Assembly (NCBI RefSeq): GCF_003990335.1
Contig: NZ_CP034683.1
Span: 4,137,501-4,201,500, forward strand
Reading direction: 5' to 3'
DNA from: Rheinheimera mangrovi
Lineage (GTDB): Bacteria > Pseudomonadota > Gammaproteobacteria > Enterobacterales > Alteromonadaceae
DNA: 64,000 nucleotides
Below, in pieces: positions 20,478 through 54,416 of this stretch. Within the stretch, counting starts at the first letter, position 1. Every line of letters begins with the position of its first letter. The translations under genes were made by a program, and so were the position numbers. The notes below the pieces were generated by a model. The model was not told the origin of the DNA. It did not search any database and worked only from the letters and a program-made list of their open reading frames with translations.

Positions 20478-20516
20478 AGGCCCCTGCTGCTGTATCTTGG
20501 CTCAGGGGCCTTTTTT
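20478..20516 (+). terminator. Rho-independent terminator after the TonB receptor
   Basis: AGGCCCCTG (20478-20486) pairs with CAGGGGCCT (20503-20511), followed by TTTTTT. It stands only 17 bp before the halogenase start codon, so expression of that gene is likely by partial read-through. Confidence 0.9.
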
Positions 20517-20532
20517 ATATGTGGAGATATAT

Positions 20533-25270: not shown

Positions 25271-25297
25271 CCTGCACAATAAACCAAGGAGTCACTG

Positions 25298-25912: not shown

Positions 25913-25918
25913 AAGCCG

Positions 25919-27070
25919 ATGAAAAAAGTAGCTTGTGACGAGCGCCCTGGCTGGCGCTCTTATGCTGAATCTGTAGGTTTTGAGTTTCATACCTTTGATG
26001 GTGAACCTTATTGGGATGAAACAGGGTATTACCAGTTTAACCTGCGTCAAATCGAACAGGATTTAGAAGAACCGACCGAAGAGCTGCATCAAATGGCGTT
26101 GGGTTTAGTTGACGACGTTATTCGCGATGAAGAAAAGCTGCGCCAGTTAGCTATACCGGAAAAGTTCTGGGATTTTGTCGCAGACTCCTGGCGCAACAAA
26201 GCCCCGTCTTTATACGGCCGACTGGATTTAGTCTACGACGGCACAGGCCCGGCTAAATTGCTGGAACTGAATTACGACACGCCAACCTCTTTATTTGAAA
26301 CAGGTTTTTTCCAGTGGGTATGGCTTGAAGATCAGATTATGCGTGGCAAGGTGCCACAAGGCGCCGATCAGTTTAACTCCCTGCAAGACCAGTTAGAGGC
26401 CGCCTTTGCCAACCTGCCTTTAGCGAATCCTTTGTATTTCGCTTCTGTTGCCAACAGCATCGAAGACAAGGGTACAGTGATGTATCTGATGGATATTGCC
26501 AGACAAGCAGGTGTCGACAGCCGGTTTATCGAACTGGAACAGTTAGGTGAAGCCAGTGGTCAACTGGTTGATTTGGACGGTTACGCCATAGGCGGCTTGT
26601 TTAAACTGTATCCGTGGGAATTTATGGTGCAGGAAGATTTTGCGTCCGTCATCTTAAGCAGTCAGACCCAATGGCTGGAACCGGGATGGAAAATGCTATT
26701 GTCGAACAAAGGCATATTGCCTTTGCTGTGGCAAAAACATCAGGGCCACCCCAACTTGCTGGAAAGCCATTTTGAACAAGCAGACCAAAGTTTTGGCGCA
26801 GGCTGGGTGCGTAAACCGCTGTTTTCCCGCGAAGGCGCGAATGTTGAATTAGTGACTCCAAACGGCGAAAAAGTCAGCGAACCAGGCCCATACGCCGATT
26901 CGCCTTTTATCCGCCAAAAATTCCAGCCGTTACCAAAATTTGGCGACAGTTACACCATGATTGGCAGTTGGGTCGTAGGCAACAGCGCCGCTGGTATTGG
27001 TATTCGTGAAGATAACTCCTTGATCACCAAAGACAGCTCCAGGTTTTTGCCGCACATTATATTGGATTGA
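25919..27070 (+). CDS. Glutathionylspermidine synthase-family ATP-grasp protein (YgiC-like)
   Basis: A 383-residue cytoplasmic protein of the GSP_synth family. Visible ATP-grasp features include DLVYDGTGPAKLLELNYDTPTSLFE, GLFKLYPWEFM and GAGWVRKPLFSREGANV. It matches the C-terminal synthetase half of Gsp but lacks the amidase domain, as do E. coli YgiC and YjfC, for which glutathionylspermidine synthesis was not shown as far as I know. It is third in the operon. Confidence 0.9.
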   Translation: MKKVACDERPGWRSYAESVGFEFHTFDGEPYWDETGYYQFNLRQIEQDLEEPTEELHQMALGLVDDVIRDEEKLRQLAIPEKFWDFVADSWRNKAPSLYGRLDLVYDGTGPAKLLELNYDTPTSLFETGFFQWVWLEDQIMRGKVPQGADQFNSLQDQLEAAFANLPLANPLYFASVANSIEDKGTVMYLMDIARQAGVDSRFIELEQLGEASGQLVDLDGYAIGGLFKLYPWEFMVQEDFASVILSSQTQWLEPGWKMLLSNKGILPLLWQKHQGHPNLLESHFEQADQSFGAGWVRKPLFSREGANVELVTPNGEKVSEPGPYADSPFIRQKFQPLPKFGDSYTMIGSWVVGNSAAGIGIREDNSLITKDSSRFLPHIILD

Positions 27071-27105: not shown

Positions 27106-27930
27106 TTAAGGTACCAGTGAAACACCCTTTGGCAGCGTCAAATACGCCAGCACCGCACTATCACGGCGAGAACTGTCCTGGTGATAGCCTTTGTTTCTAT
27201 ACAGTTGGCAGAACTGCAACGCATCGCCTTGTTGGTGCAAAAAATCATTCTGCTGCACAGCGGATAAAGCCTCACGCCATTTGGTTCCAGCCTCTGCAGG
27301 TGGTGGCGGTAAACTGGCAAGAATGCGCTCTGAAGCTACAAACTGGCTTTGGGTTGCTACTGCTAACATATCGTCCGACGCGTCACCTATCCAGCTAATA
27401 CCGCTTTTTGAAATAAAAAACAAAGGTAAATAAGGGGCCAGCGCCGGACACACCTCATTGCGATACACTGTTACCTCCCAATAGCTTCGGGCTACAGGGA
27501 CAAACTGTTCAAAGCTGGTGATTTGCTCCAAACCAGATTTGGCTAAAGGTAAAACTTCAATACGTGGCTTATTTGGATTAACAGTGTCGTTGGATACATC
27601 CAGATACCAATCACCGATAGCTATAGCGTTTTGAAAGTAGACCCCCCGAAGAGCGCCCCATATTTTTCGTAGTACCTCCCCTTGCACCAGGCGTTCGCGG
27701 ATTAATACCAATCCAGGCTCAGTTGCGGTCGGTAATTTTTTTTCTAACAGCGTAAAAACCGCATCGCGAATTTCTCTGCAACGCCCCAAAGGGTATATTT
27801 TGCTGCCGATGTAGGGGTATTTAGGGACTAACTCCAGATCCACAGTTAAACGTAAATAGGCTAAGTCAGCCACTATAGCGTTTACCTGATCAGCATCCCA
27901 GTCTGGTTTCGTTTCAGCTTTATCACTCAT
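27106..27930 (-). CDS. Uncharacterised cytoplasmic protein, last gene of giant-adhesin operon
   Basis: A 274-residue protein not recognised. It has no signal peptide or membrane segment. It opens with an acidic helix (DWDADQVNAIVADLAYLRLTV) and contains GRCREIRDAVFTLLEKKL and IAIGDWYLDVSNDTVNPNKPR. It starts 4 bp after the stop of the M50/HlyD gene, so it is part of the same transcript. This position suggests a cytoplasmic helper of the secretion module, for example a chaperone or regulator of the giant protein; that is inference only. Confidence 0.7.
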   Translation of the reverse strand: MSDKAETKPDWDADQVNAIVADLAYLRLTVDLELVPKYPYIGSKIYPLGRCREIRDAVFTLLEKKLPTATEPGLVLIRERLVQGEVLRKIWGALRGVYFQNAIAIGDWYLDVSNDTVNPNKPRIEVLPLAKSGLEQITSFEQFVPVARSYWEVTVYRNEVCPALAPYLPLFFISKSGISWIGDASDDMLAVATQSQFVASERILASLPPPPAEAGTKWREALSAVQQNDFLHQQGDALQFCQLYRNKGYHQDSSRRDSAVLAYLTLPKGVSLVP

Positions 27931-27934
27931 CGTT

Positions 27935-30052
27935 CTAAAAACCTGATTCTCTTAATAAAACACCATAGATGTAACGTAATCCATCTACCAGTAAGCTAGA
28001 GGCTTCAACAGGTAAATTTACACTGCCATACTGCTGGCGGGTAAGGAGGTTTTCATCCTGAAACCTCAGATAAACTTCGTAGGTTGCCTCATCCGGAATA
28101 AGCAATTTTTCCATTTTTTTGGCTGCTATAGGCCCGCCATACTCAGAGGCCAACCCGGCGTAGTTCAGATGCTTTATCGCGGCGGGAATAACTTTTTCAA
28201 CCACAAGCTTAGTCTGAAGTAACTCGCCATCATCGCCGATAAATAGAGCTTCACTGCCAATTTTTAGCTGGCTTACAACACGACCACTGACATAAGCCTT
28301 CACTACGCCACTTTTGTCGTCGTACAAAGTAGCCAGCGGCGCGTTTTCGTTAACATAGTCACCTTGACTCATTGGCATCCACTGGCCTATGTAGCCTTCG
28401 TATGGTGCTCGAATAGCCAGCTTTTCCCTGCGTTCTAACAAAGATGCCAAGCGGGAATTCTCCCGTGACATTTGGGTTTGTAATGTCAGTTGTGTATCTC
28501 GTAGCATGGCTCCTGAGCTGGCGCGTTGCCATTGTGTATGTAGCGCTTCTAACCTGACCTGAGTTAAGCGGATCTGCTGCTCTAGTTCGGCGGATTCAAG
28601 CAGAACGAGTAATTCCCCCTGTTTGACCTTTTTATCCGGTGTAATATTCCAGGAGATGATTTGACTGGATTCGCCGGGATAGAAGTTTTGATGACGCTCA
28701 AAAGTAGCTACAGCTGGCGCGCTGATTTCGTTTTGCCAGGGAAACACCAACACCACAGCCACAAGCAGGCAAAGCGACAAGGTTATGCGACTGGCTTTAT
28801 TTAGTGTCATGTGTTTCCTTAGACTAATCCAAACAGCTATCTCTGTGACAACGGGAACCAATACAAACCATATTATTTCCACTAAAAACAACGCTATACC
28901 TAACAATTTAAAGGCAAAAAAATAAACTAAAAGGGCAATACCTATAAACAAAACTAAGCGGTACAACCAGGTGCTCCAGGCATAAGTAACCATAAGTGCA
29001 CATTTTTTTCTGTTGAGTGGCTCAGGCGGTGCAAAACCAAAACCAAATAACAGCTCACGTAAATACCACTTACCGATTAAAAAGGAGCGTGGTTGTAGAT
29101 TCTCCATACCCAAAAAATCGGACAAGGCGTAATAACCATCAAAACGCATAAAAGGACTGATATTAATCAGTAAGGAGGATATCCAGCTGGTAGTTGCTAC
29201 AAAAAACAATACATTACGAAAACTCCCCTCAGGTACTATGCCCCATAAAAAAGTGGCGACACAAGCAATATAGATTTCAACCCGAATGCCTGCGGTGACA
29301 ATATCCAGCCGCTGAAACCTGGAACGCAAACGCCATGCGTCTGTGGTGTCTGTATACAAAATGGGGGTCAGTAGCAAAAATGCGACGCCCATAGAGCTCA
29401 CCCTGCAACCGTAACGTTTAGCAACTAATGCATGGCCTAGTTCATGAGCTGTTTTTACCAGCACGAGAGCGCCTATATAATAAAATATTGACGACAGATT
29501 AAAGAAGTTTTGCAGGGTATGAGTAAAGTTATCCCATTGCCGCAATACCATGACTAAACCCAATAGCCCTAGCAACAAAGCGACCCAATGCAGAGGTAAA
29601 GTGAATAAAAATTTTAATCGTGAAAAATAGCGGTTTAACAGTAAATCAGGGCGTATCAATGGAACTTTGATAAACAAATAATTGTGCACAAGCCAGGTAA
29701 AGAGGTGTTTTTTATGCTTCACCTGCTCCGCCTGCAACCTTGCTAGATCTTTATTCGTATTGCTTTCAAATAAATGATTTAACTCCAAAAACCGAATGAA
29801 AAATGCCAGTTCACCTTCCTCTATATCAATGTCCCATTGCTGAACCTGAGCTAGCAGTTCTGCCTCATTTTTTGCCTTACTCCACTCTTTAAACAAATAA
29901 AAGGCGGTTCTGGACAAGAAAAAAAACTTATTGGCGAGAGGATCAAATATTTGCCAGCGCGGCTCGCCATCCTCATCCGGAGAAGCGGCCAACAGACGTA
30001 AATTTTGACGTAACCTGGGTAAAGAGGCTGGTTCAACTACTTGAGATGACAT
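27935..30052 (-). CDS. PqqD-like / M50 peptidase-like / HlyD fusion membrane protein
   Basis: A 705-residue inner-membrane protein. Its N-terminal part (about 10-110; PRWQIFDPLANKFFFLSRTAFYLF) resembles a PqqD-like domain. A multi-helix domain (about 145-445) has the zinc motif HELGH in VLVKTAHELGHALVAKRYG and the second site NISPFMRFDGYYALSD, both typical of site-2-protease-like M50 proteins. A HlyD-type biotinyl-lipoyl/coiled-coil adaptor follows (about 450-690; VKQGELLVLLESAELEQQI, IRAPYEGYIGQW). It could span the inner membrane and dock on TolC, acting as peptidase, export channel or both. It overlaps neither neighbour: the GAF/HlyD gene ends 1 bp before it. Confidence 0.85.
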   Translation of the reverse strand: MSSQVVEPASLPRLRQNLRLLAASPDEDGEPRWQIFDPLANKFFFLSRTAFYLFKEWSKAKNEAELLAQVQQWDIDIEEGELAFFIRFLELNHLFESNTNKDLARLQAEQVKHKKHLFTWLVHNYLFIKVPLIRPDLLLNRYFSRLKFLFTLPLHWVALLLGLLGLVMVLRQWDNFTHTLQNFFNLSSIFYYIGALVLVKTAHELGHALVAKRYGCRVSSMGVAFLLLTPILYTDTTDAWRLRSRFQRLDIVTAGIRVEIYIACVATFLWGIVPEGSFRNVLFFVATTSWISSLLINISPFMRFDGYYALSDFLGMENLQPRSFLIGKWYLRELLFGFGFAPPEPLNRKKCALMVTYAWSTWLYRLVLFIGIALLVYFFAFKLLGIALFLVEIIWFVLVPVVTEIAVWISLRKHMTLNKASRITLSLCLLVAVVLVFPWQNEISAPAVATFERHQNFYPGESSQIISWNITPDKKVKQGELLVLLESAELEQQIRLTQVRLEALHTQWQRASSGAMLRDTQLTLQTQMSRENSRLASLLERREKLAIRAPYEGYIGQWMPMSQGDYVNENAPLATLYDDKSGVVKAYVSGRVVSQLKIGSEALFIGDDGELLQTKLVVEKVIPAAIKHLNYAGLASEYGGPIAAKKMEKLLIPDEATYEVYLRFQDENLLTRQQYGSVNLPVEASSLLVDGLRYIYGVLLRESGF

Positions 30053-31390
30053 TTAAAAGCCTAAACTTTGGCGCACAAAGGTGATGGGCCTGCGGAATAG
30101 ATAATAAGCCAGCGAAACCTTTTCTCCGTACAACTTGGCAGTTCCACGCAAACCAATGCGGGGCGCTGTGGTATCCACTGTGCTGTCTGCAACAATACGA
30201 TAAGCCACTATCTGATCCGGCGTTAAACTGGGTTCAAATGAGGAATAATCCACGACAAAAGGGATAGGGTTCAGTGGATCGGTGTCAAGGTAGAAAGTTA
30301 CCTGATTACCACGACTTAAAGAAATAGCGTCTTTAACCGGTAGCCGGACCTCTAATTGGATCTTGCTTGGATCAGCCACAGATAAGATACGCTCTCCCAC
30401 CACAACAGGGCGGCCTTTCCATTGCTCAGGATCATCAAGTACAGCAATACCGGCCTGATCGGCAATGATGTCTGTCTGGGCTAACTTCGTTTTTAAATAA
30501 CTCAGTTCAATACTTTTCAACTGAACTTGTGATTCCAGCTCTGCCAGTTCCGATTTTTTCCTACTATCAACATAACCTGCTTGTTCAGCTGTGCGCAATT
30601 CGGCCTGAGCTCTTTCCAGCTCTCGTTGAGCTACATCATAATGTCCTTTGAACTCCGTCTTATCCATCAGCACAACGGGCTGGCCCTTATGAACAATATC
30701 TCCCGGCTTGACCAGTACTTCACTAACAGCTCCGGCAATAGCAGACGTAATCATAAATGGCTCTTTTGCAATAATCTCTGCAGGAGCTAACACAGTTAAC
30801 CTCACAGGGATAAAACTGGCTAACAACAAAGTTACGGCAGTGACTAGTTGCACACGCTTCGACAACAGCTGCTTTAACCAATAACGCCAACCTGATTTAG
30901 ATGCAAAAAAATGCAAGGCATGCGCGTAACTTGAGGCAAGATGCTGCAACAATCCTATTTCTTTTTCTGTCCAGGCTGTAGATTTAGCTAACAGCAACAC
31001 ACCAACTCGTTGATTTGGTTTAGCTGGAATAAAAAGCGGCAACCACAGCATATAAGGCGGAGAGAATTCTGATAGATCATTCAGCAATTCAATTGGCCAT
31101 GCAGCTGGCTCGAGGAGATGAGTTTTAGCAGCAGAATTTGACTCATTTATCAGTCTGGCGACTTGTTCTACCCAGGCACAAAAGGGCGTTGTGCGGTCTA
31201 TCAGCGAAAGATCACTCAAAGCGGCAAGGGTTAACCGCTCAAGTTCATTGCCGCTCAAATAGGCCGCTTGTTCATAGGACACCAGACTGCGCGTCGTGTT
31301 CACCATTACAAAACAGAGTTCTGTAAAAGTTTCACAACGCCGGACCTGTTGCTCTATCTGTAATAATTGTGCAACGGCTTGTTCAGACAT
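30053..31390 (-). CDS. GAF-like / HlyD membrane-fusion adaptor
   Basis: A 445-residue protein. The first 170 residues look like a cytoplasmic GAF-type domain (ETFTELCFVMVNTTRSLVSYE ... RVGVLLLAKSTAWTEKEIGLLQHLASSYAHAL). One membrane helix follows (about 180-200), then a periplasmic HlyD adaptor (VSEVLVKPGDIVHKGQPVVLMD, a helical hairpin, and a beta-barrel with LEVRLPVKDAISLSRGNQV). A cytoplasmic sensory head on an adaptor is unusual and could couple export to a small ligand. It starts 3 bp after the giant gene's stop and abuts the M50/HlyD gene. Confidence 0.85.
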   Translation of the reverse strand: MSEQAVAQLLQIEQQVRRCETFTELCFVMVNTTRSLVSYEQAAYLSGNELERLTLAALSDLSLIDRTTPFCAWVEQVARLINESNSAAKTHLLEPAAWPIELLNDLSEFSPPYMLWLPLFIPAKPNQRVGVLLLAKSTAWTEKEIGLLQHLASSYAHALHFFASKSGWRYWLKQLLSKRVQLVTAVTLLLASFIPVRLTVLAPAEIIAKEPFMITSAIAGAVSEVLVKPGDIVHKGQPVVLMDKTEFKGHYDVAQRELERAQAELRTAEQAGYVDSRKKSELAELESQVQLKSIELSYLKTKLAQTDIIADQAGIAVLDDPEQWKGRPVVVGERILSVADPSKIQLEVRLPVKDAISLSRGNQVTFYLDTDPLNPIPFVVDYSSFEPSLTPDQIVAYRIVADSTVDTTAPRIGLRGTAKLYGEKVSLAYYLFRRPITFVRQSLGF

Positions 31391-31393
31391 AAA

Positions 31394-34300
31394 TTAAGAC
31401 GCCAATAATTTCATTACACTGCTGCCATAGCCATCAGCTTGTCCTGCTGCTACCGATAATTGCTGATCAAGCGACATAAAGGCGGTCACATTTTCTGCCC
31501 CTACAAAGCCCAAAGGTTCAGCGGCTGGCGCTGTTGATTCAGGCAGATTTTCCAGATCGACTTCAATTTCCAGCACCCGAATTACACCATTGGCATCAAC
31601 AGCATTAATACGCAGTGTAACTTTGCCTTGTCCTGGCGGTGGTGTCATAGTGACCTCACCTGTCACTGGGTTTACTTTGACCCAATCCGGCAGCTCTGTA
31701 CCATCAGCTAAGGTTGCACTGAAACTGGCAGCTCCTACTGTGTCAGCTAACACGATCGAAATTTGACCTGTTTGGATGATCATATTAGCCACAGTTAAGC
31801 TGCTATTAAGAGAGTCACCGACTGGCTGAGTAATTTGTACCTGACCGTCAGCTCCCACGTTTACTACTACTGCCGAGGTTGATGCAGGTGCAGGTGTGTT
31901 AATAGAGCTAAAGCTACTGGTTCCAACTGGCACCTGAACAGCAAACCCACTTGAGGTCCCTGCAGAATCAACAGTGCCTTGCGGTAAGCTGCTTAAACTA
32001 ATAGGAGCAATCTCAATCGCCTGAGGTTCCACTACTGGCGCAACAGGCGCTGGGGCAGGTGCAGGTACAACAACCTCAGGAGCTATAATAGGAGCTGGTT
32101 CTATCGTTAAGGTCACAGGGATTCGAACTTGACCACCATTCGGATCGGTAGCAACCAATTGCAGAGTCAGTACCCCTGTTACATTTCCTGACAGGAGACC
32201 TGAAATAGTGCGGGTTAACGGGTCAAATACCAAACCTTCAGGTAAATTCTCCACACTTAACAGCAACTGTCCGGTTTCAGAACCATCAATGTCTGCAAAC
32301 AAATTACCCGCTACTGTGACAGGGGCAAAGACCTGACCCAGAGTTCCAGTCATTGCCGGAACACTACCAACTGCAGTAGGTGCATCATTGCTACCATTGA
32401 TCACAAAGATTGCATCTCTCGCTTGAGTGGCAATGCCATCGGTAACACGGATGGTAAAGATATCACTAGCTAGCTGACCCGCAGTTAGTGCCTGAGTATC
32501 GCCATCACTATTATCCAACAAATAGGTCACGACACCACTGGCTAACGAAAAAGTCGCGGTTCCAAACGAACCTGCTTTTGAGAAAGTTAGGCCACCATCT
32601 GTGCTGACCCAGCCTGTTTCAATCAAGAAGCCAGTGTCATAACTTACGGTTCCGACAGTATCCAGATCCCCTTTGCTGAAGCTTATTGTGGCGCTATTAA
32701 TGCCTGTGGTTGCGTTGTTGACCCCACCCGCTTCAACCAAAGCATTGCTGGCACCGCCTGCAGTCAGTGTTGGGGGATTGTCGTTTAAGTCCACTACACT
32801 GACCAGCACATCCTGGTTGCTGCTCAGCGTGCCATCGCTGGCTACGACAGTGAAGCTGTAGCTCGCTTTAGTCTCGTAATCTGCAGCGTTTTTCAGGCGC
32901 ACTTCGCCGGTCGTCGCATTAATGGTCAGCAAGTCAGCATCTGCACCGCTCAGGCTGTAGCTCAGGGTGTTGTGGGCTGAAGTGCCATCCGCATCGGTTG
33001 CGGCTGCGGTGTAAATCACTGTGTCTGTTGCTGCGTTTTCATTCACGCTGCCGGTCGCGCCAGAGCTGATGACGGCTGTATTGTCATTTAAGTCAATGAC
33101 ACTCACCACCACATTCTGGTTGCTGCTCAGCGTGCCATCGCTCGCCACCACCGTGAAGCTGTAGCTGGCTTTGCTTTCATAATCCGCAGCGTTTTTCAGG
33201 CGCACTTCACCTGTCGTCGCATTAATGGTCAGCAAGTCAGCATCTGCACCGCTCAGGCTGTAGCTCAGGGTATTGTGAGCACTGGTGCCATCTGCATCGG
33301 TTGCGGCTGCGGTGTAAATCACTGTGTCTGTTGCTGCGTTTTCATTCACGCTGCCGGTCGCGCCAGAGCTGATGACGGCTGTATTGTCATTTAAGTCAAT
33401 GACACTCACCACCACATCCTGGTTGCTGCTCAGCGTGCCATCGCTCGCCACCACCGTGAAGCTGTAGCTGGCTTTGCTTTCATAATCCGCAGCGTTTTTC
33501 AGGCGCACTTCACCTGTCGTCGCATTAATAGTCAGCAAGTCAGCATCTGCACCGCTCAGGCTGTAGCTCAGGGTGTTGTGGGCTGAAGTGCCATCTGCAT
33601 CGGTTGCGGCTGCGGTGTAAATCACTGTCGTCGTATCGGCGTTTTCATTCACAGTGCCTGTTGTGCCAGAGCTGATGACGGCCGTATTGTCATTTAAGTC
33701 AATGACACTCACCACCACATCCTGGTTGCTGCTCAGCGTGCCATCGCTCGCCACCACCGTGAAGCTGTAGCTGGCTTTGCTTTCATAATCCGCAGCGTTT
33801 TTCAGGCGCACTTCACCTGTCGTCGCATTAATAGTCAGCAAGTCGGCATCTGCACCCGTCAGGCTATACGTCAGCGTGTTGTGGGCTGAAGTGCCATCCG
33901 CATCGGTCGCGGCTGCGGTGTAAATCACTGTGTCTGTTGCTGCGTTTTCATTCACGCTGCCGGTCGCGCCAGAGCTGATGACGGCTGTATTGTCATTTAA
34001 GTCAATGACACTCACCACCACATCCTGGTTGCTGCTCAGCGTGCCATCGCTGGCTACGACAGTGAAGCTGTAGCTGGCTTTGCTTTCATAATCCGCAGCG
34101 TTTTTCAGGCGCACTTCACCTGTCGTCGCATTAATGGTCAGCAAGTCAGCATCTGCACCGCTCAGGCTGTAGCTCAGGGTATTGTGAGCACTGGTGCCAT
34201 CTGCATCGGTTGCGGCTGCGGTGTAAATCACTGTGTCTGTTGCTGCGTTTTCATTCACGCTGCCGGTCGCGCCAGAGCTGATGACGGCTGTGTTGTCGTT

Positions 34301-49300: not shown

Positions 49301-52045
49301 AGTAACTGTCCCAGCAAAGCCAAGGCTCTCATTTGCAGATGCCGCATTGACCGTACCGTTATTGATCGTTACACCACCATCGAAATCTCCGTTGGTGGCA
49401 GAAAACGTCATGCTACCTGCGCCAGTTTTAGTTAATAGCGCACTACCCGCAACTGAGCCGGAAAGCGTCAGATGCCCACTGCCAGTCTGGTTAAAAGTGG
49501 CACCACCAGTTTCAATTGCAAAACTATTATCAACGGTGAGTGTATTAGCCGCTGTGGCAAAAGTGGCACCGCCACTCAGGATAACGTCGCCTGTCCCCAG
49601 ATTGTTATCACTGGAAATGGACAAGGTACCACCCGTCACTGTGGTCTTACCCTCATAGGAGTTGTCACCCGATAACGTAAGCCTGCCGTCTGCAGTTTTA
49701 GTCAAACCACCCTCGCCAGCGAGCACACTGGAAATCGTAGCGTTATCGCTGCTGCCGTTCGTTAACGTCAGGGTTGTATCTGCTGCCAACGTTATGGTGC
49801 TGCCCGAGATATTGACGCTGCTGGTTGCATTAGCGTCAATGATTAAGCTTTCATTAATCGCTAAATCACCCGCCAGTGTGGTACCACTAAACGCGCTGCT
49901 TAACACCAGTGTCTGTGTACCTGTAGTGTCGGCTGCTGCTATAGCCACAGCTTCGCTGAAGCTAATGCCATCAGACACATCAATAGTTGCGGTGTCAGTG
50001 GTATTGGTCACGTAGATAGTATCGCTGGTGACTGTTGTCGTCGCCGTAGTGCTACTACCTGCGCCATCCGTCAGAGTGAAACCAATACTTACATCACCCG
50101 CTGGGGTGTCGTTTTGATAGCTGATACCACTGAAAATCCAGCCCACCATTTCTGAGGTGGCATTGGCGTTAAAGGTGATAGTCAGCACACCATTCACATT
50201 GGTGTAGCTGGCAAAGCTCTGCCCTGCAGCTTGACTGTAAAACTTCAGCGTACCACTGGTTGCATCTGTTGCTGTGGCTTCGACATAAATACTATTAAAG
50301 TCGAATTTGTCGCCGGCCCAGGCACCATCTACTGTGCCGCCCGTTGCAGTACGTTGTATAACCAGCGAACCACCGTTCCAGTTGCCTTCCGCATCTGTGA
50401 CTGCAGCAATACCTGTTAAACCACTAAAATTATCGAGATAAGTGTAAGTGCCATTTGGCCATTCGCGTGTATCACCATCCAGATTGTTGATAACAGGGGC
50501 TGTGTTGGCTGGCGCCGCAGTGGTGAAGTTAAAGGTGCTATCGTCGCTTATCGCGGCCAGGTCATTGCTTGCAGTGTCTTCAATACTACCAGCGTCAAAC
50601 CGCAGGCTATATTGGGTACCTGCCAGTAAATTACCATTAGGGTTGAGCGTCAGCTTGTCGCCACTTATGGTCAACGTCGAGCCGTTCGAACCAGTCACTG
50701 TGCCACTGGAAATGTTAGTGACATTAAAGGTTTCGGCGTTTTGGCCTTGAGTCACATTACGCAGGGTAATGGTACCACTGGCACCGAATTGAATATCTTC
50801 ACTAAAGTCTACGACTATGTTATCGCCGACAGCGACGTTGGAGGCATTATCGGCAGGGGTAGAATTGGCACTATCCAATGTGGGAGCTGTGGTGTCAGCA
50901 GCAGCGAATGTGTAGGTGACGGTATTACCGTAGGCGTAAGTGCCTCCCTCGTAGGACAGGGTGATAACATTGCCGGATATTGACACGCTAAAAGCGTTCA
51001 TCATCGCCTGATCACCGGATTCGGTCGGCATAGTCGACCCGAAATTGCTGAAGGCTGTGCCGGAGCCTGACTGGTATTCCCCCCCCGGTGTGTAATTAGT
51101 GTAAAATTTGAGTTGAATCGGCCACAGGTCTTCGGTGGGGTAATTACCAAAATTATCCACATTTGTAATTGTGAATCCGTTGTCAAAAAAATCGATCTCA
51201 AGATACCCTTGATCGTCAGGGTCAAAGCTTTCATCACTTGTACCAATCGCCCTATAAAAGGCGTTACCTTCAGCAGTAATGGATTCAACCGTTACGTTAT
51301 TAGCACCCCCATTATAAAAACCAAGAATTCCTTCAAAGAAAGCCAAATCTAGCGACGCAGTTTCCAGCCTGCCGCCGCTAGCCTCCAACTCCCAATCCCC
51401 GCCAAGATTGGCTGCACCTGTTAGGTCATCCGACGCCGCCACATCCGCTTGGGTGGCTTGGGCTAAAGCAGTAATAAATTCTTGCCCTTCACCGCTCGCA
51501 ACTTCACAACCATAAAGCAGTAAATCGCCACTTTCATTCAACGCCGCGCCCAGTTGGGCTAAATCAGCTGAACGGGTATGAACGGTACTAACATTTAAAC
51601 TAAAACCACCTAAACTGACCTGCCCTTCAGCGCCATGACTCAGAATATGAATAGCGTCATAATCCGACTTGCCCTGTGCCCAGTCGGCCATTTGTGCAAG
51701 ACCGTCTTTGCTGCCATCCAGCAATACGACCTCAACGCCCTCTTTCATACCGTTTAGCAATGTCTGGTAATCCGTTACATTGCTGTCGATAAACACCACT
51801 TCTTTTTTGCCAGAGTTTCTGCCCGGGTCCAGTGGGCGAAGTTCCGTAGGTGCAATCCCTGTGGACAGATCCGACTGACCAAGATCCTCCCCTACAGCCT
51901 TGTACACTGCATCCTGTTGCAACTGTGCATCAGTGATGACATCAACAGCTGTGGCTACCGCAGCACCATCCAACAACAAACGTGGCTCTAAGGCCGTAAT
52001 CAAAGGTTTACGTGCTAGTTTTTTGTTGGAGTAATGCTTTTTCAT
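31394..52045 (-). CDS. Giant LEPR-XLL / DUF4347 repeat protein (surface adhesin)
   Basis: A 6,883-residue protein, start ATG at 52045 with GAGGTGG upstream (GTG at 52054 is less likely). The N-terminus has the LEPR-XLL motif (LEPRLLLDGA, 19-28) instead of a signal peptide. Then come a DUF4347 domain (about 83-245) with a His137 (SHG)/Cys180 (YGC) pair, and a bacterial Ig-like segment (TAPTLDSANSTPADNASNVA). Two long blocks of autotransporter-type beta-strand repeats (pattern LTKTGAGTLTLSGANTYTG) are each preceded by a homologous non-repeat module. Seventeen cadherin-like repeats of 97-101 residues follow, then VCBS/Ig-like domains and a Pro/Val-rich tail. There is no RTX repeat and no C-terminal barrel. 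It is a probable cell-surface or biofilm adhesin exported by the neighbouring HlyD/M50/TolC proteins. Confidence 0.9.
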   Translation of the reverse strand: MKKHYSNKKLARKPLITALEPRLLLDGAAVATAVDVITDAQLQQDAVYKAVGEDLGQSDLSTGIAPTELRPLDPGRNSGKKEVVFIDSNVTDYQTLLNGMKEGVEVVLLDGSKDGLAQMADWAQGKSDYDAIHILSHGAEGQVSLGGFSLNVSTVHTRSADLAQLGAALNESGDLLLYGCEVASGEGQEFITALAQATQADVAASDDLTGAANLGGDWELEASGGRLETASLDLAFFEGILGFYNGGANNVTVESITAEGNAFYRAIGTSDESFDPDDQGYLEIDFFDNGFTITNVDNFGNYPTEDLWPIQLKFYTNYTPGGEYQSGSGTAFSNFGSTMPTESGDQAMMNAFSVSISGNVITLSYEGGTYAYGNTVTYTFAAADTTAPTLDSANSTPADNASNVAVGDNIVVDFSEDIQFGASGTITLRNVTQGQNAETFNVTNISSGTVTGSNGSTLTISGDKLTLNPNGNLLAGTQYSLRFDAGSIEDTASNDLAAISDDSTFNFTTAAPANTAPVINNLDGDTREWPNGTYTYLDNFSGLTGIAAVTDAEGNWNGGSLVIQRTATGGTVDGAWAGDKFDFNSIYVEATATDATSGTLKFYSQAAGQSFASYTNVNGVLTITFNANATSEMVGWIFSGISYQNDTPAGDVSIGFTLTDGAGSSTTATTTVTSDTIYVTNTTDTATIDVSDGISFSEAVAIAAADTTGTQTLVLSSAFSGTTLAGDLAINESLIIDANATSSVNISGSTITLAADTTLTLTNGSSDNATISSVLAGEGGLTKTADGRLTLSGDNSYEGKTTVTGGTLSISSDNNLGTGDVILSGGATFATAANTLTVDNSFAIETGGATFNQTGSGHLTLSGSVAGSALLTKTGAGSMTFSATNGDFDGGVTINNGTVNAASANESLGFAGTVTLNGGSLVISNDATFDNDIVVNADSTISNSTNVTLSGMVSGTGTLTKSANGTLTLSNSSNSGATGGLTVSAGVVNVATDGMLLGGTVTLSGGKLQVTGNQTYDNNIVLVGTAEITTLSGSGGVEAFLTGIISGTGNLIKSGSTTLVLSGDNTYSGTTTIAQGGLQANHANALGSTVGGTVVSSGASLALSDVSIAEDVSIIGTGVGSLGALLSVGTSSSSGTVTLAGNSSIGVLSGSLTISGTISDGSSSFSLTKVRAGSLVLSGDNSYDGGTVVSGGELSVTGDSNLGSGALTLNSGTLFVTGDGANIDNAISLLSSGGVVKVDTGVTATLSGVVSGTGALAKAGAGVLTLGATNTYTGATSVTDGTLKTNTTGINATSGLTLNGGTLSTLSNIGISKEFAVSIGSNGGTLDLSNGSMALSGVISGTGNLAVRSTSAGNALTLSGANTYSGGTTLSGGILSLESNTAVGTGTLTIDGGKVRSTGAARTLDNDLVVNTTFTMAGSYGLTFTGDVDLGGGTRIFSNGLGVGKDLNLSGVISNGNLTVASSGLGQVILSGNNAYGATSITSGTLSITGDSNLGSDTVTLNGGTLSVTGSGVTIDNAFAIGSNGGTVNFANAATLSGVFSGTGELNKTGAGVLTLSGNNANYSGNIALNQGVIIAAHNNALGNTTGSTTVASGTTLRLMDGVTIAENLTISGVGINSAYGALKINEGTGSATVTGDITLAADSLIGAFNAGDSLTLSGVISGDFDLTKVGSGTLTLSGANTHSGAVTVSQGTLALSGGSSIGDSSAVTVSSGATLSLTGGNETIGSLAGAGAVSLSYGLTLGNASNTVFSGVISSTNSSGINKVGSGTLALSGANTYTGSTTVSAGKLLLQGGSALADSNAVTINAGAELELRDSETIGSLAGAGSLTLNGGSLTTGSDNSSTIFSGAIRDGGNGGGLTKVGAGTLTLTSGDGSNTYSGGTTVAAGTLAISRNSHLGTGTITLDGGTLQMLSGGNFSFSNPMTNALVLASDSTIATASGVYAKWSNVISGSGSLTKTGAGSLGVAAVNTYTGDTTLSEGAIVIDSATATLGGADAGNGNAYGTLTIHSGAHLDFNYGATIANDLVIGGVGVGYGAIQAGFSGTDVTFTGAVTLSSDTLVDPGNITLEFSGGISDGGNDYTLTNAWSGTIKLSGTATNWTGGIATVANHTGKFSITDSSNIGTGQINLNGGGLVITGAATLENAVVIGSGGASVDASNAVTLSGVLSGTGAFTKAGAGTLTLSGTNTHSGAATVSAGTLALSGGSAIGDNSVVTVDSGATLSLTDGAETIGSLSGAGNVALGSNGLTLGGDGSNSLFSGSISGIGGGVTKVGSGSLTLGGTNTYTGATTISAGTLYLENGSAIANSSAVTIDTGAELELRNSNETIGSLSGAGTLTLNGGSLTTGGDNSSTTFSGVIQDGDGSNGGLTKSGSGTFTLTGSNTYTGATQVSAGTLVAGSDTALGATTAGTTVSSGGKLSLGDGVNVAEALSIAGIGGLTLTSGSATLSGNLTLTADARVTVDGSATLTSSGTWSGAYTAYKMGTGSLVLSGTNSGATTTNLSASSGTLSITDASNLVGGTLTLNTGVGGSLTVTGSDVTISKNIVLGNSGGRIVNANALTMSGVVSGSGALSKAGDGALTLSGSSTYTGATTVSAGTLLVNGSLGATSSLTVASGATLGGTGSIFAINSSNTLTVANGATLSPGVAGSNNAAGTLTVNGNLLMASGSTFAADIAGSTAGSDYDQVIVNGTVSLNGANLSTALTYSPTNGDVFRFISNDGSDANTGTFATLAEGEKLTPTGNTGFALTAYYSASDAGAASGGNDFMLAFVNAAPTLTVGSTVSLTDAANGLTAPGSTVVTDAEGNWTNGTLTIERVTSGGTADGNANDLFSFLSGLTVTGGPIVKGADSSGTLSDGTTVFASWAYSSATGKLVITFDSVATTAQVQTLVQNIGYSNATPYGDANIRLTLTDDLSGNVAMGTITVTSNLIYVDTNSDDGDGDAADGFSLREALAKGASQSGSDTIKVVLSDNSTITLGSAVTAGAGDVLELDTANGLTITGSSINIDSGNTLTISNSTGDTATIGSVIAGSGNLAKAGDGKLTLSASNTLTGALSVTGGTLAVSSNAISSSSGLTLDGGTLASTASLSYSKGMTLGSGGGTVNISAGSATLSGVMGGAGSLTIVSTVGGNALNLSGANTYSGGTTLSSGILTIGNNNAVGSGTLTINGGKVRSMTSPYTLSNDLVLGGTLTISGAYGLTFSGNVDLGGATRTIDNGLSSNLLFSGVISNGSLAVASNGSGKVILSGSNTMTAAAVTKGTLSVSDDTNLGAGTVTVNGGTLEVTGSSVTIDNTIAVGSSGGTLSNANAVTLSGVMSGTGTLTKSGAGTLNLSGANTHSGNLTIAAGTLELSGGSAIGDNSAVTVDSGATLSLAGSDETIGSLAGAGEVSLSYTLTVGGSTNTIFSGVISSTNASGITKVGSGTLTLSGANTYTGATTVSAGKLLLQGGSAIADSSAVTINAGAELELRDSETVGSLAGAGSLTLNGGSLTTGGNNSSTTFSGVIQDGGGLIKTGSGDFTLSGSNSYAGDTAVFGGSLSVSSDSNLGAGALTLNGGTLNLIADGVHIDNAISVFSNNGQINVGANVTATLSGVVSGSGSLTKVGDGTLALSGTQTGTGEMSILDGTLSVAGDANLLAGALTLNGGALSVTGASTIDNAIALGSLGGRVINTDAVTLSGVLSGTGSLSKDGAGTLTLSSTQTGTGEMSILDGTLSVAGDANLLAGALTLNGGDLTVTGTDVTIDNSITLGSNGGGVSNANSVTLSGNITGSGDFSKFGLGVLTLSGTNTYTGLTTVSAGTLVAGSTTALGASGSGSGTRVESGATLRLGSVLSIAEDISLSGSGVSSAGALAYTASSGTATLSGSITLADDAVIHSNSGTAVLAISGVIGGSGSLTKTGNGILELSGNNTYTGATTVSAGYLRAYHSNALGSTIAGTTVSNGASLRLSDGVTLAENLILSGAGSSSNGALQFTSGSSTITGNVTLDADTRFSLTGGNLMLSGVVSGVGSLIKAGGGTLALSGAQTGTGGITISAGTLSVAGDGNLLEGTVTLAGGTLSVTGATTIDNSIDLSAAGTINNIDAVTLSGVISGTGALTKAGEGALTLSGTQTGSGGMSIIAGTLSVAGDANLLAGALTLNGGALSVTGASTIDNAIALGSLGGRVINTDAVTLSGVLSGTGSLNKSGSGVLTLSGTQTGSGGISIIAGTLSVAGDANLLAGALTLNGGALSVTGASTIDNAIALGSLGGRVINTDAVTLSGVLSGTGSLSKDGVGTLTLSGTQTGTGEMGILDGTLSVAGDANLLAGALTLNGGALSVTGATTIDNAIELSSAGSITNLDMVSLSGTISGTGDLNKFGAGTLILSGTQTGTGSMTVSAGSLAVAGDANLLAGSLILNGGALSITGTSTIDNSVTLGANGGVVNSTATATLSGAVSGSGSLTKTGNGTLTLSGNNTYTGTTTISEGSLAVAGGNGISDNSAVIVQSGATLHVELTDETIGSLAGAGTVTLNAGTLTVGSDNSSTNFSGQILDQESGSLVKTGSGTLTLSGSSSYTGSTTVSEGSLNIAGALTATSGISVLSGATLSGTGSVFTSGSNSALTINQGAFLAPGASAAGSLTVNGNLTLNGRLKANINGTAAGTQYDQVVVTGAVTLGADSSFEINYSGSDAAYSYVLIDNDASDSVTGTLNGVADYGLLPAHDSDFQIRYQGGTGNDVTLTLNSHPVISSGATGSVDENAADSTVIYTVTATDVDNDTLSYSLSGADADLLTINATTGEVRLKNAADYETKASYSFSVVVTDSRNLSSSKDVVVSVLDVNEAPVVTSGATGSVNENADAATTVIYTVTATDVDNNTLSYSLSGADADLLTINATTGEVRLKNAADYESKASYSFTVVASDGTLSSNQDVVVSVIDLNDNTAVISSGATGSVNENSATDTVIYTAAATDADGTSAHNTLTYSLTGADADLLTINATTGEVRLKNAADYETKASYSFTVVASDGTLSSSQDVVVSVIDLNDNTAVISSGATGTVNENADTTTVIYTAAATDADGTSAHNTLSYSLTGADADLLTINATTGEVRLKNAADYESKASYSFTVVASDGTLSSNQDVVVSVIDLNDNTAVISSGATGSVNENAATDTVIYTAAATDADGTSAHNTLSYSLSGADADLLTINATTGEVRLKNAADYETKGSYSFTVVASDGTLSSNQNVVVSVIDLNDNTAVISSGATGSVNENAATDTVIYTAAATDADGTSAHNTLSYSLSGADADLLTINATTGEVRLKNAADYESKASYSFTVVASDGTLSSNQDVVVSVIDLNDNTAVISSGATGSVNENAATDTVIYTAAATDADGTSAHNTLSYSLSGADADLLTINATTGEVRLKNAADYETKGSYSFTVVASDGTLSSNQNVVVSVIDLNDNTAVISSGATGSVNENAATDTVIYTAAATDADGTSAHNTLSYSLSGADADLLTINATTGEVRLKNAADYESKASYSFTVVASDGTLSSNQDVVVSVIDLNDNTAVISSGATGSVNENAATDTVIYTAAATDADGTSAHNTLSYSLSGADADLLTINATTGEVRLKNAADYESKASYSFTVVASDGTLSSNQDVVVSVIDLNDNTAVISSGATGSVNENAATDTVIYTAAATDADGTSAHNTLSYSLSGADADLLTINATTGEVRLKNAADYESKASYSFTVVASDGTLSSNQDVVVSVIDLNDNTAVISSGATGSVNENAATDTVIYTAAATDADGTSAHNTLSYSLSGADANLLTINATTGEVRLKNAADYESKASYSFTVVASDGTLSSSQDVVVSVIDLNDNTAVISSGATGSVNENAATDTVIYTAAATDADGTSAHNTLSYSLSGADADLLTINATTGEVRLKNAADYESKASYSFTVVASDGTLSSSQDVVVSVIDLNDNTAVISSGATGSVNENAATDTVIYTAAATDADGTSAHNTLSYSLSGADADLLTINATTGEVRLKNAADYESKASYSFTVVASDGTLSSNQDVVVSVIDLNDNTAVISSGATGSVNENAATDTVIYTAAATDADGTSAHNTLTYSLTGADADLLTINATTGEVRLKNAADYESKASYSFTVVASDGTLSSNQDVVVSVIDLNDNTAVISSGTTGTVNENADTTTVIYTAAATDADGTSAHNTLSYSLSGADADLLTINATTGEVRLKNAADYESKASYSFTVVASDGTLSSNQDVVVSVIDLNDNTAVISSGATGSVNENAATDTVIYTAAATDADGTSAHNTLSYSLSGADADLLTINATTGEVRLKNAADYESKASYSFTVVASDGTLSSNQNVVVSVIDLNDNTAVISSGATGSVNENAATDTVIYTAAATDADGTSAHNTLSYSLSGADADLLTINATTGEVRLKNAADYETKASYSFTVVASDGTLSSNQDVLVSVVDLNDNPPTLTAGGASNALVEAGGVNNATTGINSATISFSKGDLDTVGTVSYDTGFLIETGWVSTDGGLTFSKAGSFGTATFSLASGVVTYLLDNSDGDTQALTAGQLASDIFTIRVTDGIATQARDAIFVINGSNDAPTAVGSVPAMTGTLGQVFAPVTVAGNLFADIDGSETGQLLLSVENLPEGLVFDPLTRTISGLLSGNVTGVLTLQLVATDPNGGQVRIPVTLTIEPAPIIAPEVVVPAPAPAPVAPVVEPQAIEIAPISLSSLPQGTVDSAGTSSGFAVQVPVGTSSFSSINTPAPASTSAVVVNVGADGQVQITQPVGDSLNSSLTVANMIIQTGQISIVLADTVGAASFSATLADGTELPDWVKVNPVTGEVTMTPPPGQGKVTLRINAVDANGVIRVLEIEVDLENLPESTAPAAEPLGFVGAENVTAFMSLDQQLSVAAGQADGYGSSVMKLLAS
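32780..37905 (-). repeat. Tandem array of 17 cadherin-like repeats within the giant gene
   Basis: Fifteen units have an exact 303-bp period (GTAAATCACTG recurs at 33011, 33314, 33617 and so on to 37253). The two units at the N-terminal end of the array are 291 bp long. The protein unit is ISSGATGSVNEN...DADLLTINATTGEVRLKNAADYE...VVSVIDLNDN. Nucleotide identity between units is very high, including synonymous positions, which indicates recent duplication or gene conversion. Confidence 0.95.
38250..49760 (-). repeat. Passenger-type beta-strand repeat blocks within the giant gene
   Basis: Dozens of degenerate units of about 25-40 residues (TKxGxGTLTLSGxNTYTGxTTVSxGTL) in two blocks (about 44000-49760 and 38250-42960), separated by a distinct module (about 43000-43990). 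Inside the second block an 86-residue (258-bp) higher-order unit recurs (for example TACTGGCACC at 39361, 39619 and 41101). Such repeats build a long beta-helix in known autotransporter passengers. Confidence 0.88.
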
Positions 52046-52129
52046 AATAACCACCTCAGGGGGATTTTTTTACAACCGATGTTATGTTGGTTAATAAAAC
52101 GCTTTTATTCTTTCTTTTGTTGCCAGGGT

Positions 52130-52840
52130 TTAATTGAAAATGGCAACAACACTCATACCCGGCAATACTTTGGCAGGTACTTTTTTAATTTCGGCACGGA
52201 TCTGTATGGTTTGGCTTGTTGGGTCCACACTGGGCCCAATATGGCTTATTACAGCCTCTAATTGCTGTTGTGATTCTTCGACATGCAACACTATGGCTTT
52301 ACCTACTTCAAGCCAGCTCATCCAATGAGCAGACACAATGATTTCAGCCTCTAAGCTGTTAAGGCTGACTATTTTCATCAAGGCTTGTTGCTGTTGCACT
52401 ATTTCATGGGTATGTACGTCAACTTGTTCAACCACACCTTGAAATGGCGCTTTTATGTCACAACGCTCTACGTTTAGTTGCGCCATAATCCGTTCTGCCT
52501 CTATCTTTTCAGTCTCGGCCTGGGCTATTGCAACGTCAAGAGTTCCTATAGAGTTCAACTTGCTGAGTTGTTGTGCATTTTCTAACTTTAACTGAGCGAC
52601 CAACACTTCAGACTGTACTTTGTCTCGCTGCGCTTTAAATAAGCGACAATCAAGCCTGATCAGCGGGTCACCTTTTTTAAAGGATTCTCCGACTTTTTTT
52701 GGGACAGCTATCACTTTAGCCGCAAGCTCGCTGGATAAAGTGGCCTTACTGGAAGCCACTAACATGCCGCGAGCACGCTGTTCTTCGGCATGAGCTGAGG
52801 TTTGCAGCACAAACAGCAGTATTGTGCCTATATAGATCAA
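52130..52840 (-). CDS. HlyD/RND-type periplasmic adaptor (short)
   Basis: A protein of about 236 residues with a signal peptide (KLIYIGTILLFVLQTSAHA), a split lipoyl domain (KVGESFKKGDPLIRLDCRLF and CDIKAPFQGVVEQVDVHTHEIV), a helical hairpin between them and a beta-barrel. It lacks the C-terminal extension of full RND adaptors. The start is ambiguous: GTG at 52840 has GGAG 10 bp upstream and gives a clean signal peptide, whereas ATG at 52864 overlaps the end of the TolC-like gene. It sits between the TolC-like and giant genes, so it is probably the periplasmic bridge of the exporter. Confidence 0.85.
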   Translation of the reverse strand: MIYIGTILLFVLQTSAHAEEQRARGMLVASSKATLSSELAAKVIAVPKKVGESFKKGDPLIRLDCRLFKAQRDKVQSEVLVAQLKLENAQQLSKLNSIGTLDVAIAQAETEKIEAERIMAQLNVERCDIKAPFQGVVEQVDVHTHEIVQQQQALMKIVSLNSLEAEIIVSAHWMSWLEVGKAIVLHVEESQQQLEAVISHIGPSVDPTSQTIQIRAEIKKVPAKVLPGMSVVAIFN

Positions 52841-52853
52841 CTTCACTGTTGTA

Positions 52854-54416
52854 TCACTCCGACGCATGCTGCACGGCAGGCTCAGGAGTTGTATTAACAA
52901 TACCCAAGTCACCTTGTTGCCATTTGCTGGTCAGCGCCTGAAAGGCTGCAGATAATTGCTCAAGATCCATAGCGCCAAAGCCTTCAGGCAAAGGGTCCAA
53001 CCCCATGGATACCAATACTTTGCCGTAGTTGTTTTGTACTTCAGCATAAGCAACGTCACGACGTAACTCAGCCAACAAGGCGTTTAAGTCTTCCCGGATC
53101 ACTGTCAACTCACCAATGCTTTGAGCCGCTCGGTTTGAATCCACCTGGGTTTTTATACGTTGGGCTACATCGAAATATTGTGTAGCTAACTGGTAGGTGT
53201 CGTTCGATTCTTTGAATTGAATATCTGCAATATGAACCTGAGAAATAACAGCCATAGAGGTGGCAAGTGCCTGTTGCTTGCTAGCCGCAATCTTTAAGTT
53301 ATTCAACTCATCGGTTTTGCCGTGTCGAAACACATTCATTAAATTCCAATTCACGCCTAAACCAGCAGTAGTCCAGTTATTGTTACGCAGATAATCAGTA
53401 TCGTTGTAATTCACGCCGGCATTTAAACTTAAGCTTGGAAATAACTTCAGAAATGCCGAATGCACTTCGTCTTGGGTAATACGTTCCTGATATTGCGCTT
53501 CAAGTAATTCAGGACGACGAACCAAAGCTGTTCGCTCCATAGTGTTGATATCTAACGTCAAATTCGGCAGGGTGAAATCCGGATTTTTCACGTCGAGTAA
53601 TTCAAAATCGGTTGCAGGGTTTAATCCCATCAGGGTGGCAAGTTCAGCTTTAGCTGGCATTAACTCTTTGCGAATGTCTTGCAGGGTACGTAAGGTCTCC
53701 AACAAATCACGCTGGTAAGTTAAAGCGTCAATTGGCGACTGTGCGCGCAGTTGCTCCAAGCGGGCTGAATCATCCAAAGCTGCCCGGGATTTCATAATCA
53801 ACGGATCGATTTTCGCTAACAAGCGCTCTGCTGATACGGCTCGATAATAGGCGCTTCGCGATTGGGCCATGATCATTTGGATCACTTTGCGTTCACGTTC
53901 TTTGGAAATCAAAAACCGGTCGGCTTGTTGCTTAGCGCGATAATAAGATAAACCAAAATCAAGCACATCCCAGGTTGCGCCTATACTGGCGTTTACCGTA
54001 CTTTTGTCCGACGACACTGAATAACTTGGATTATCACTAATAGGGCCGGGTTTATCACCAATAAAGGCAACTGATGCTGAGGCCGCGTAATTGTTCCGTC
54101 TGTTATATCCAGCCTGAGCAGCGAAATCGGGTAACATGTCAAATTGATCAACAGCTAACTGGCCCTGAGACATGACAGCCTCAAAAGCTTTTAATCTTGC
54201 GTCTCTGTTGTATTTGATCGTACGGGCAAAAGCCTGGTGCAAATCAATAGGACCAGTCACAGCCGCCACGTCTTGAGCCAGGGTAGATGCGTTTTCGGCT
54301 GCATTAGCCATCACATCCTTATCAGACAATTGTTCCGGGGTTACCGAACAACCAGCCAATGCTGCCGCAATAAACACAGCTAAAGTCGTACGGGAAAACA
54401 AGTATCGAGCATACAT
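52854..54416 (-). CDS. TolC family outer-membrane efflux lipoprotein
   Basis: A 520-residue protein with a lipoprotein signal (AAALAGC) and two OEP repeats with long helical stretches, as in TolC/CusC trimers (SKERERKVIQMIMAQSRSAYYRAVSAERLLAKIDPL; EVQNNYGKVLVSMGLDP). It is the first gene of the giant-protein operon and presumably forms its outer-membrane exit. SD AAGGGG precedes the ATG at 54416. As a lipid-anchored OEP it resembles NodT/CusC-type factors rather than E. coli TolC. Confidence 0.9.
   Translation of the reverse strand: MYARYLFSRTTLAVFIAAALAGCSVTPEQLSDKDVMANAAENASTLAQDVAAVTGPIDLHQAFARTIKYNRDARLKAFEAVMSQGQLAVDQFDMLPDFAAQAGYNRRNNYAASASVAFIGDKPGPISDNPSYSVSSDKSTVNASIGATWDVLDFGLSYYRAKQQADRFLISKERERKVIQMIMAQSRSAYYRAVSAERLLAKIDPLIMKSRAALDDSARLEQLRAQSPIDALTYQRDLLETLRTLQDIRKELMPAKAELATLMGLNPATDFELLDVKNPDFTLPNLTLDINTMERTALVRRPELLEAQYQERITQDEVHSAFLKLFPSLSLNAGVNYNDTDYLRNNNWTTAGLGVNWNLMNVFRHGKTDELNNLKIAASKQQALATSMAVISQVHIADIQFKESNDTYQLATQYFDVAQRIKTQVDSNRAAQSIGELTVIREDLNALLAELRRDVAYAEVQNNYGKVLVSMGLDPLPEGFGAMDLEQLSAAFQALTSKWQQGDLGIVNTTPEPAVQHASE

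Follow-up and report, generated by a model that had tools for sequence, protein, structure and literature searches.

A candidate ABC-free export locus for a LEPR-XLL giant protein in Rheinheimera mangrovi

Described secretion loci and the six-gene block

LapA, LapB, LapC and LapE make up a type I giant-adhesin secretion system, and in streptococci the accessory SecA2 exports serine-rich repeat adhesins. Here we analyse a stretch of 64,000 nucleotides (the window) from the single 4.63-Mb contig of the Rheinheimera mangrovi genome, in which six minus-strand genes (27106 to 54416) encode, among others, a TolC-like lipoprotein, HlyD adaptors, a fusion of a PqqD-like head, an M50 protease domain and an HlyD arm (hereafter M50-HlyD) and a giant protein opening with a LEPR-XLL tag. 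The genomic evidence gathered below gives good support to the existence of an export machine dedicated to LEPR-XLL giants. More specifically we favour, at a probability of roughly 0.55, the reading that this block is dedicated to carrying the giant across the envelope and displaying it, the M50-PqqD-HlyD fusion probably replacing at the inner membrane the usual ABC (ATP-binding cassette), RND or MFS pump.

The closest described loci are those of Kamneva, Poudel and Ward (2015; PMC4452313), which combine SecA_DEAD, M50, GAF-HlyD and HlyD proteins, contain no ABC transporter and sometimes include an OEP; in the sections of that paper covered here, secretion is inferred, an M50 pore is suggested, the broader role is called unknown and no substrate is named, and a text search of it returned neither LEPR nor PqqD. 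As in those loci, the window has M50-HlyD, GAF-HlyD (its GAF match being weak and below cut-off) and HlyD adaptors without an ABC gene; it differs from them in lacking the defining secondary SecA_DEAD protein, the single SecA found in its own genome being of housekeeping size (921 aa). The M50 pore raised in a first-pass annotation of the window had already been suggested in that work for the SecA_DEAD branch. We regard the six-gene block as a candidate variant of this scarcely described secretion locus, to which a candidate substrate and a putative two-ended code are newly assigned.

With type I giant-adhesin secretion the block shares a TolC-like channel, an HlyD adaptor, a giant of Ig/cadherin type and a conserved C-terminal tail, but it has three adaptors, no ABC gene and no RTX block, and its genome holds no LssB-type ABC over cut-off (best LssB/LapB match, TIGR03375, 354.7 bits against 693.1). 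SecA2 export has a parallel in a second branch of M50-HlyD loci (clade B, below), in which a second SecA-like ATPase is paired with large surface proteins; it differs in that the present machines have a Gram-negative envelope and TolC/HlyD parts, and in that clade A, to which the window belongs, has no adjoining SecA-like gene. From site-2 proteases (RseP, M50) the window protein differs by its fused PqqD-like head and HlyD arm, and this head is like the PqqD-like/RRE leader-binding domains in profile match and strand-helix order but is fused to an exporter-like protein, its ligand binding being putative only. SiiE is described as a type I-secreted giant adhesin in the part of PMC8277102 covered.

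The open reading frame (ORF) list bore out the six minus-strand frames of the first-pass annotation, which nearly touch (gaps of 4, 0, 3, 75 and -59 bp from the low-coordinate end, that upstream of the giant being 75 bp from its GTG start and 84 bp from the ATG at codon 4). Pfam supported the proposed TolC-like lipoprotein, the HlyD adaptors (HlyD_3 matched in three proteins) and the M50 protein, and neither an ABC gene nor a SecA-like gene is among the six. Their features are as follows.

52854..54416, minus: TolC-like outer-membrane lipoprotein (OEP), 520 aa; Pfam OEP 6.8e-29, lipobox LAGC by eye
52130..52912, minus: HlyD/RND-type periplasmic adaptor, 260 aa; HlyD_3 1.5e-19, RND_mfp 114.6 bits (cut-off 94.9)
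31394..52045, minus: substrate-like giant, 6,883 aa when read from ATG; ORF 31394-52054 from GTG, the ATG being codon 4
51959..51991, minus: N-terminal tag LEPRLLLDGAA of the giant, residues 19-29; NF012209
51356..51799, minus: DUF4347 of the giant, caspase/CHAT-like fold with His-Cys pair, residues 83-230
32777..37809, minus: 303-bp unit repeated in tandem 16.6 times with 93% matches, in the cadherin region (Pfam Cadherin)
31457..31474, minus: C-terminal tail motif SLDQQL of the giant, first residue 26 from the end; pattern shared by clade-A tails
30053..31390, minus: 445-aa HlyD adaptor bearing a GAF-like head at its N-terminus; HlyD_3 1.9e-11, GAF 0.0016, below cut-off
27935..30052, minus: fusion of PqqD-like head, M50 zinc intramembrane protease and HlyD adaptor, 705 aa; Peptidase_M50 5.4e-9, HlyD_3
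29432..29446, minus: HELGH zinc motif of the fusion, residues 203-207; H203, E204 and H207 invariant in 63 homologues
27106..27930, minus: orphan protein, 274 aa; no Pfam or NCBIfam family

Linkage of M50-HlyD to LEPR-XLL giants and its two clades

Our survey covered 369 genomes of the source organism's class, M50-HlyD being called from matches at E below 1e-27, some of them partial. The gene was present in 57 genomes (123 at E 0.001, where the weaker matches arise mostly through the HlyD part), and LEPR-XLL exceeded its curated cut-off in 49 genomes and reached at least 20 bits in 31. M50-HlyD was found in 28 of these 31, against 57/369 overall (Fisher 6e-23), and in 36 of the 49; all 22 pairs of LEPR-XLL and M50-HlyD sharing a contig were co-oriented, 0.2 to 646 kb apart and 21 of them within 57 kb. 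The co-occurrence that the first-pass annotation had suggested looking for is therefore far above chance. We found no paper linking LEPR-XLL to M50-HlyD or naming an exporter of such giants, most subscription papers and all preprints lying outside the search.

Beyond this set, 80 named loci were collected, spanning alpha-, beta- and gammaproteobacteria, Nitrospirota and further groups, and in 65 of them the upstream stretch exceeds 4.5 kb. Of these 65, 64 have an additional HlyD adaptor within 1.5 kb of M50-HlyD (any such adaptor was counted, as the MFP and GAFH models cross-match), a TolC-type gene is present in 45, a same-strand ABC gene lies within 5 kb in three, and no SecA-like gene was found in any. 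The tag or DUF4347 occurs within the fetched stretch of 28 loci; among the other 37, a long ORF leaves the upstream end in 30, on the machine's strand in 27 of these, and DUF4347 is found somewhere in the genome in 30/37, compared with 0/14 control genomes.

The M50-HlyD gene is also found on plasmids, in 52 of 72,556 PLSDB records at E 1e-40; plasmids of Cupriavidus metallidurans CH34 and Azospirillum argentinense are among its carriers. One E. coli plasmid (L262, NZ_CP081687.1, 2349-22100) carries a full cassette, with a giant of 4,459 aa, TolC and three HlyD adaptors, one of which is the M50 fusion; 24 of 5,426 E. coli genomes have the M50-HlyD gene of this plasmid. The annotated order of giant, TolC, adaptor, adaptor and M50 recurs among plasmids; in one locus the giant is found between the adaptors and another has no annotated TolC. 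In Azospirillum lipoferum 4B the GAF-HlyD and M50-HlyD genes are separated by a MazEF-type pair (L264, 19175-19776).

In a quick tree built from 56 rows of the M50 part, two clades separated with SH-aLRT 100: clade A, 39 rows with the window among them, and clade B, 17 rows. A SecA-like gene neighbours none of the clade-A rows and 11 of the 17 in clade B. When loci are instead grouped by score, a SecA-like ATPase adjoins M50-HlyD in 22 of 43 loci falling into the more distant group (also called 'B'; E above 1e-75), which includes partial matches as well as L039 and L040, placed in clade A by the tree. Within the window's own family M50-HlyD is patchy (7/59 genomes at E 1e-15, its own included) and represented by both score groups. 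The clade-B SecA-like protein combines SecA_DEAD with cross-linking and P-loop domains, and SecA wing/scaffold was absent among the domain matches of the two such proteins scanned. The locus that Kamneva and colleagues described (2015; PMC4452313) is this SecA-bearing branch. Two clade-B long ORFs (L050 and L051, two proteins only) have a hydrophobic C-terminal stretch and a W..DPLPxL tail and are possibly membrane-anchored, and one genome (G235), given as 100% complete, yielded no SecA match at E 1e-8.

Tag subtype goes with machine clade. A D-type tag, LExRxx[FL]D[GA]A, accounts for 38 of 42 clade-A pattern matches and the S-type for none; in clade B an S-type, LExRxLLSAD-like tag was found in 13 of 17 rows, the D-type in one and other forms in three. 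All four 'other' rows of clade A and two of clade B's three have the look of chance matches. Of the 59 rows in this comparison, 13 took their clade from the genome rather than from the same stretch. One genome, G303, holds both machines, with LEPRLMFDAAA beside the clade-A gene and LEPRLLLSADL on another contig. This pattern fits recognition of the tag by the machine and would also fit co-inheritance.

The fusion protein and the two ends of the giant

In the M50 domain, H203, E204, H207, D305 and N297 are invariant in 63/63 homologues, and the protein shows the site-2 protease pattern of HExxH plus a distal Asp ligand. Since the zinc ligands are invariant, proteolysis, and not only a channel or gate, is favoured, and a working protease appears to fit better than a mere pore. 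The first-pass annotation had the M50 part form or gate the inner-membrane step; its anatomy stands, and against a channel or gate alone the invariant ligands argue for proteolysis. The closest named relative found is from Marinomonas rhodophyticola (67% identity).

The PqqD-like head on this protein, likewise proposed at first pass, is real by profile comparison. Aligned with hhalign to the PqqD profile, the clade-A head reached 94.3% probability over 63 columns (one row, L216, being out of frame) and the clade-B head 96%, and PF05402 exceeded its cut-off at the N-terminus of the M50-HlyD proteins of two distant-group genomes, G009 and G052. A probability of 97% between the two heads comes from a discarded comparison containing wrong-frame rows. 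The AlphaFold2 model of the head shows three strands followed by three helices. No PqqD chain appeared among the 50 best rows of each fold list for M50-HlyD; because the HlyD part occupies these rows, this is no evidence against a PqqD-like head.

The Pfam scan of the giant covered its first 1,333 and last 1,334 residues. The former contain LEPR-XLL, DUF4347, PATR and Big_5 (Pfam and NCBIfam) and the latter cadherin and He_PIG domains. The LEPR-XLL opening was confirmed by NCBIfam (LEPR-8K/NF012209, 17.5 bits against a cut-off of 17). By its His-Cys pair and caspase-like fold DUF4347 fits a clan CD cysteine peptidase, the His being replaced in 6 of 46 covered rows; the Foldseek list also contains flavodoxin and other folds. 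Motif count and Pfam agree with the first-pass view of a giant lacking both an RTX signal and a C-terminal barrel, given that an RTX block was not found and RTX-like GGxGxD occurs in a single copy. A type V autotransporter was considered and rejected, as no barrel is among the Pfam matches of the last 1,334 residues despite PATR in the first 1,333.

At the other end, clade-A giants carry a motif of the form ~G[KR]x[SGAP][LF][SDNT][EQ]Q[LFVI] (~GKxSLSEQL), starting 18-50 residues from the end. Of 54 long ORFs collected, L161 was dropped for a run of unknown residues and non-giants such as the window's 915-aa ORF were kept; the strict motif was present in 36 of the 53 tails, compared with 59 of 3,663 windows taken from inside these proteins and no more than 6/53 shuffled tails. 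Because the tails used for this count are also those from which the pattern was derived, plasmid loci serve as a separate check: 14 regions were fetched of the 52 records, L273 was excluded because the end of its giant is unresolved, L270, perhaps not a giant of this kind, was counted as a miss, and 8 of 13 tails had the strict and 10 of 13 the loose motif. Some of these loci come from genera in the first set, and the L274 tail is nearly identical to that of L149. Among tag-selected giants with both ends in view the strict motif occurs in 13/19; tails of the machine's own proteins have it in 4/53, 0/76, 0/87 and 2/106. Scans of six tails against Pfam and NCBIfam turned up no model covering the motif. 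The conserved tail (36/53 and 8/13) may or may not act as the uncleaved C-terminal signal typical of type I cargo; the window's giant has no RTX block. Because clade-A giants share this motif, the N-terminus need not be the sole signal. The N-terminal tag noted at first pass holds up, its subtype tracking the machine clade; the conserved tail was overlooked there.

Concerning the remaining parts of the block, the HlyD adaptor ORF at 52130-52912 has a GTG start and an internal ATG at 52867. In the GAF-HlyD protein one membrane helix, seen by eye, separates the GAF-like head from the adaptor, and GAF matched 6 of 52 members at E 0.01. The only relative of the orphan among the fetched loci is that of Marinomonas rhodophyticola (L106), there also directly downstream of M50-HlyD. 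The orphan (P0005) was considered as a SapC relative, which is unsupported (hhalign probability 0.1%, two against five sequences). SapC-like genes recur close to the M50-HlyD loci L047, L048, L084, L107, L113 and L196, PF07277 being shown in L084. A promoter scan upstream of the block gave nothing above chance. Elsewhere in the window, on the plus strand, lie a tryptophan halogenase gene (20497-22035) and, consecutively, DUF350, DUF1190 and glutathionylspermidine-synthase-like genes (24857-27070).

A proposed two-ended export mechanism and its rivals

LapA is retained at the cell surface and then released, and we propose a similar course for the LEPR-XLL giants. The LEPR..FDGA peptide would dock on the PqqD-like head and then be cut by the M50 domain; both clades share the tag, the head and M50. 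Cutting is how we best read an invariant zinc site that adjoins a head of peptide-binding type. In the SecA-free clade the C-terminal SLSEQL tail would engage the adaptors and lead the chain out through HlyD and TolC, so that the N-terminus exits last, plugging the channel and anchoring the giant, until either M50 or the caspase-like DUF4347 domain cuts the held N-terminus and releases it. Candidate energy sources for clade A are housekeeping SecA/SecYEG and the proton gradient. A tentative and, taken whole, rather doubtful extension is that this machine works without an ABC, RND, MFS or dedicated SecA motor on a megadalton cargo read at both ends, the tail starting export and LEPR..FDGA being held and cut, and that the two clades represent tail-first export without SecA and head-first export with a SecA-like motor.

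Several observations weigh against this proposal. M50-HlyD was missing from 13 of the 49 genomes over the LEPR cut-off, six of which have their match in an ORF of at least 400 aa: four of the ten weaker matches, and two of the three reaching 20 bits, G213 and G076, whose long proteins bear the tag LEQRxLLSxSP (the third, G120, is a 99-aa ORF). A Vibrio LEPR-XLL giant with C-terminal RTX has been published (PMC10868602, as far as the part covered goes). PF05402 gave no direct match at E 0.01 in any of the 63 M50-HlyD homologues. Tag and machine may have been inherited together in a single locus, so that matching clades are no proof of recognition. The loose tail motif occurs as well in 10/53, 5/76, 11/87 and 20/106 tails of the machine's own proteins, for which reason only the strict form is telling; even the loose form is missing from 16/53 clade-A and 3/13 plasmid tails, and in the tail of the G412 relative only the loose form occurs. 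Clade-B tails, a small sample of ten with several doubtful ends, gave no strict and one loose match. Finally, all the support is genomic.

Four other explanations have to be weighed. SecYEG and housekeeping SecA might carry the giant over the inner membrane, leaving to the HlyD/M50/TolC block the outer-membrane step and, as an unusual signal peptidase, the clipping of LEPR; the frequent SecA-like gene beside M50-HlyD in clade B and in the distant score group and the housekeeping-sized SecA of R. mangrovi speak for this possibility, to which we accord real but minority weight. Against it, the N-terminus of the giant lacks a classical hydrophobic core (best 12-residue hydrophobicity mean 1.87, Asp included, where the probable signal peptides of OEP and HlyD reach 2.5 and 2.8), and clade-A giants carry the conserved C-terminal tail, to our knowledge no feature of Sec substrates. 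Alternatively the M50 helices could be the inner-membrane pore, with protease activity lost or incidental, as the first-pass annotation and, for the SecA_DEAD branch, PMC4452313 would have it; nothing else in the block looks like a polytopic membrane protein and the AlphaFold2 model of M50-HlyD has several long helices, but with the zinc ligands invariant we consider this unlikely.

Ordinary type I secretion, in which an ABC exporter encoded elsewhere would use the adaptors and TolC of the block, could draw on a 704-707-aa ABC exporter-like ORF that follows an HlyD gene in the same genome (C1:66.6-70.4 kb, the ABC gene at C1:68304-70316; L208 4616-8383), about half a megabase from the block on the circle, and on same-strand ABC ATPase genes within 5 kb of 5/93 clade-A loci (0/17 in clade B). 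However, of these five nearby genes that of L039 is ABC-F-like by its Pfam domains and that of L040 has the same size and place. Moreover, tree or score assigns a clade-A machine to 17 genomes, of which 10 have neither PrtD over cut-off nor a full-length LssB/HlyB match (E<=1e-100, beginning no later than model position 10; for most genomes among the best 34 to 42 candidates), and seven, R. mangrovi included, have one; in G224 a partial match lies in a 767-aa ORF. An LssB/HlyB/PrtD-type ABC exporter is no constant companion of clade-A machines, the first-pass idea of an ABC-free locus is upheld, and the type I explanation strikes us as quite improbable. PqqD-like heads are typical of peptide maturation, and M50-HlyD scores 7.5e-45 (153.7 bits, under the cut-off of 300) against NCBIfam daptide_HExxH; that the protein matures a small peptide in daptide or epipeptide style beside a giant that is its neighbour by chance is nevertheless very hard to reconcile with the genome-wide linkage to LEPR giants and the recurring plasmid order.

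If the preferred reading of a dedicated export machine holds, its implications extend beyond the window. LEPR-XLL giants are present in many genomes and the SecA_DEAD loci of 2015 were left without a substrate; joining both gives each a testable partner. The cassette may move between species, since the M50-HlyD gene is also found on plasmids. Should the protease-adaptor be the inner-membrane unit, the rule that HlyD/TolC exporters all need a recognised pump would be broken.
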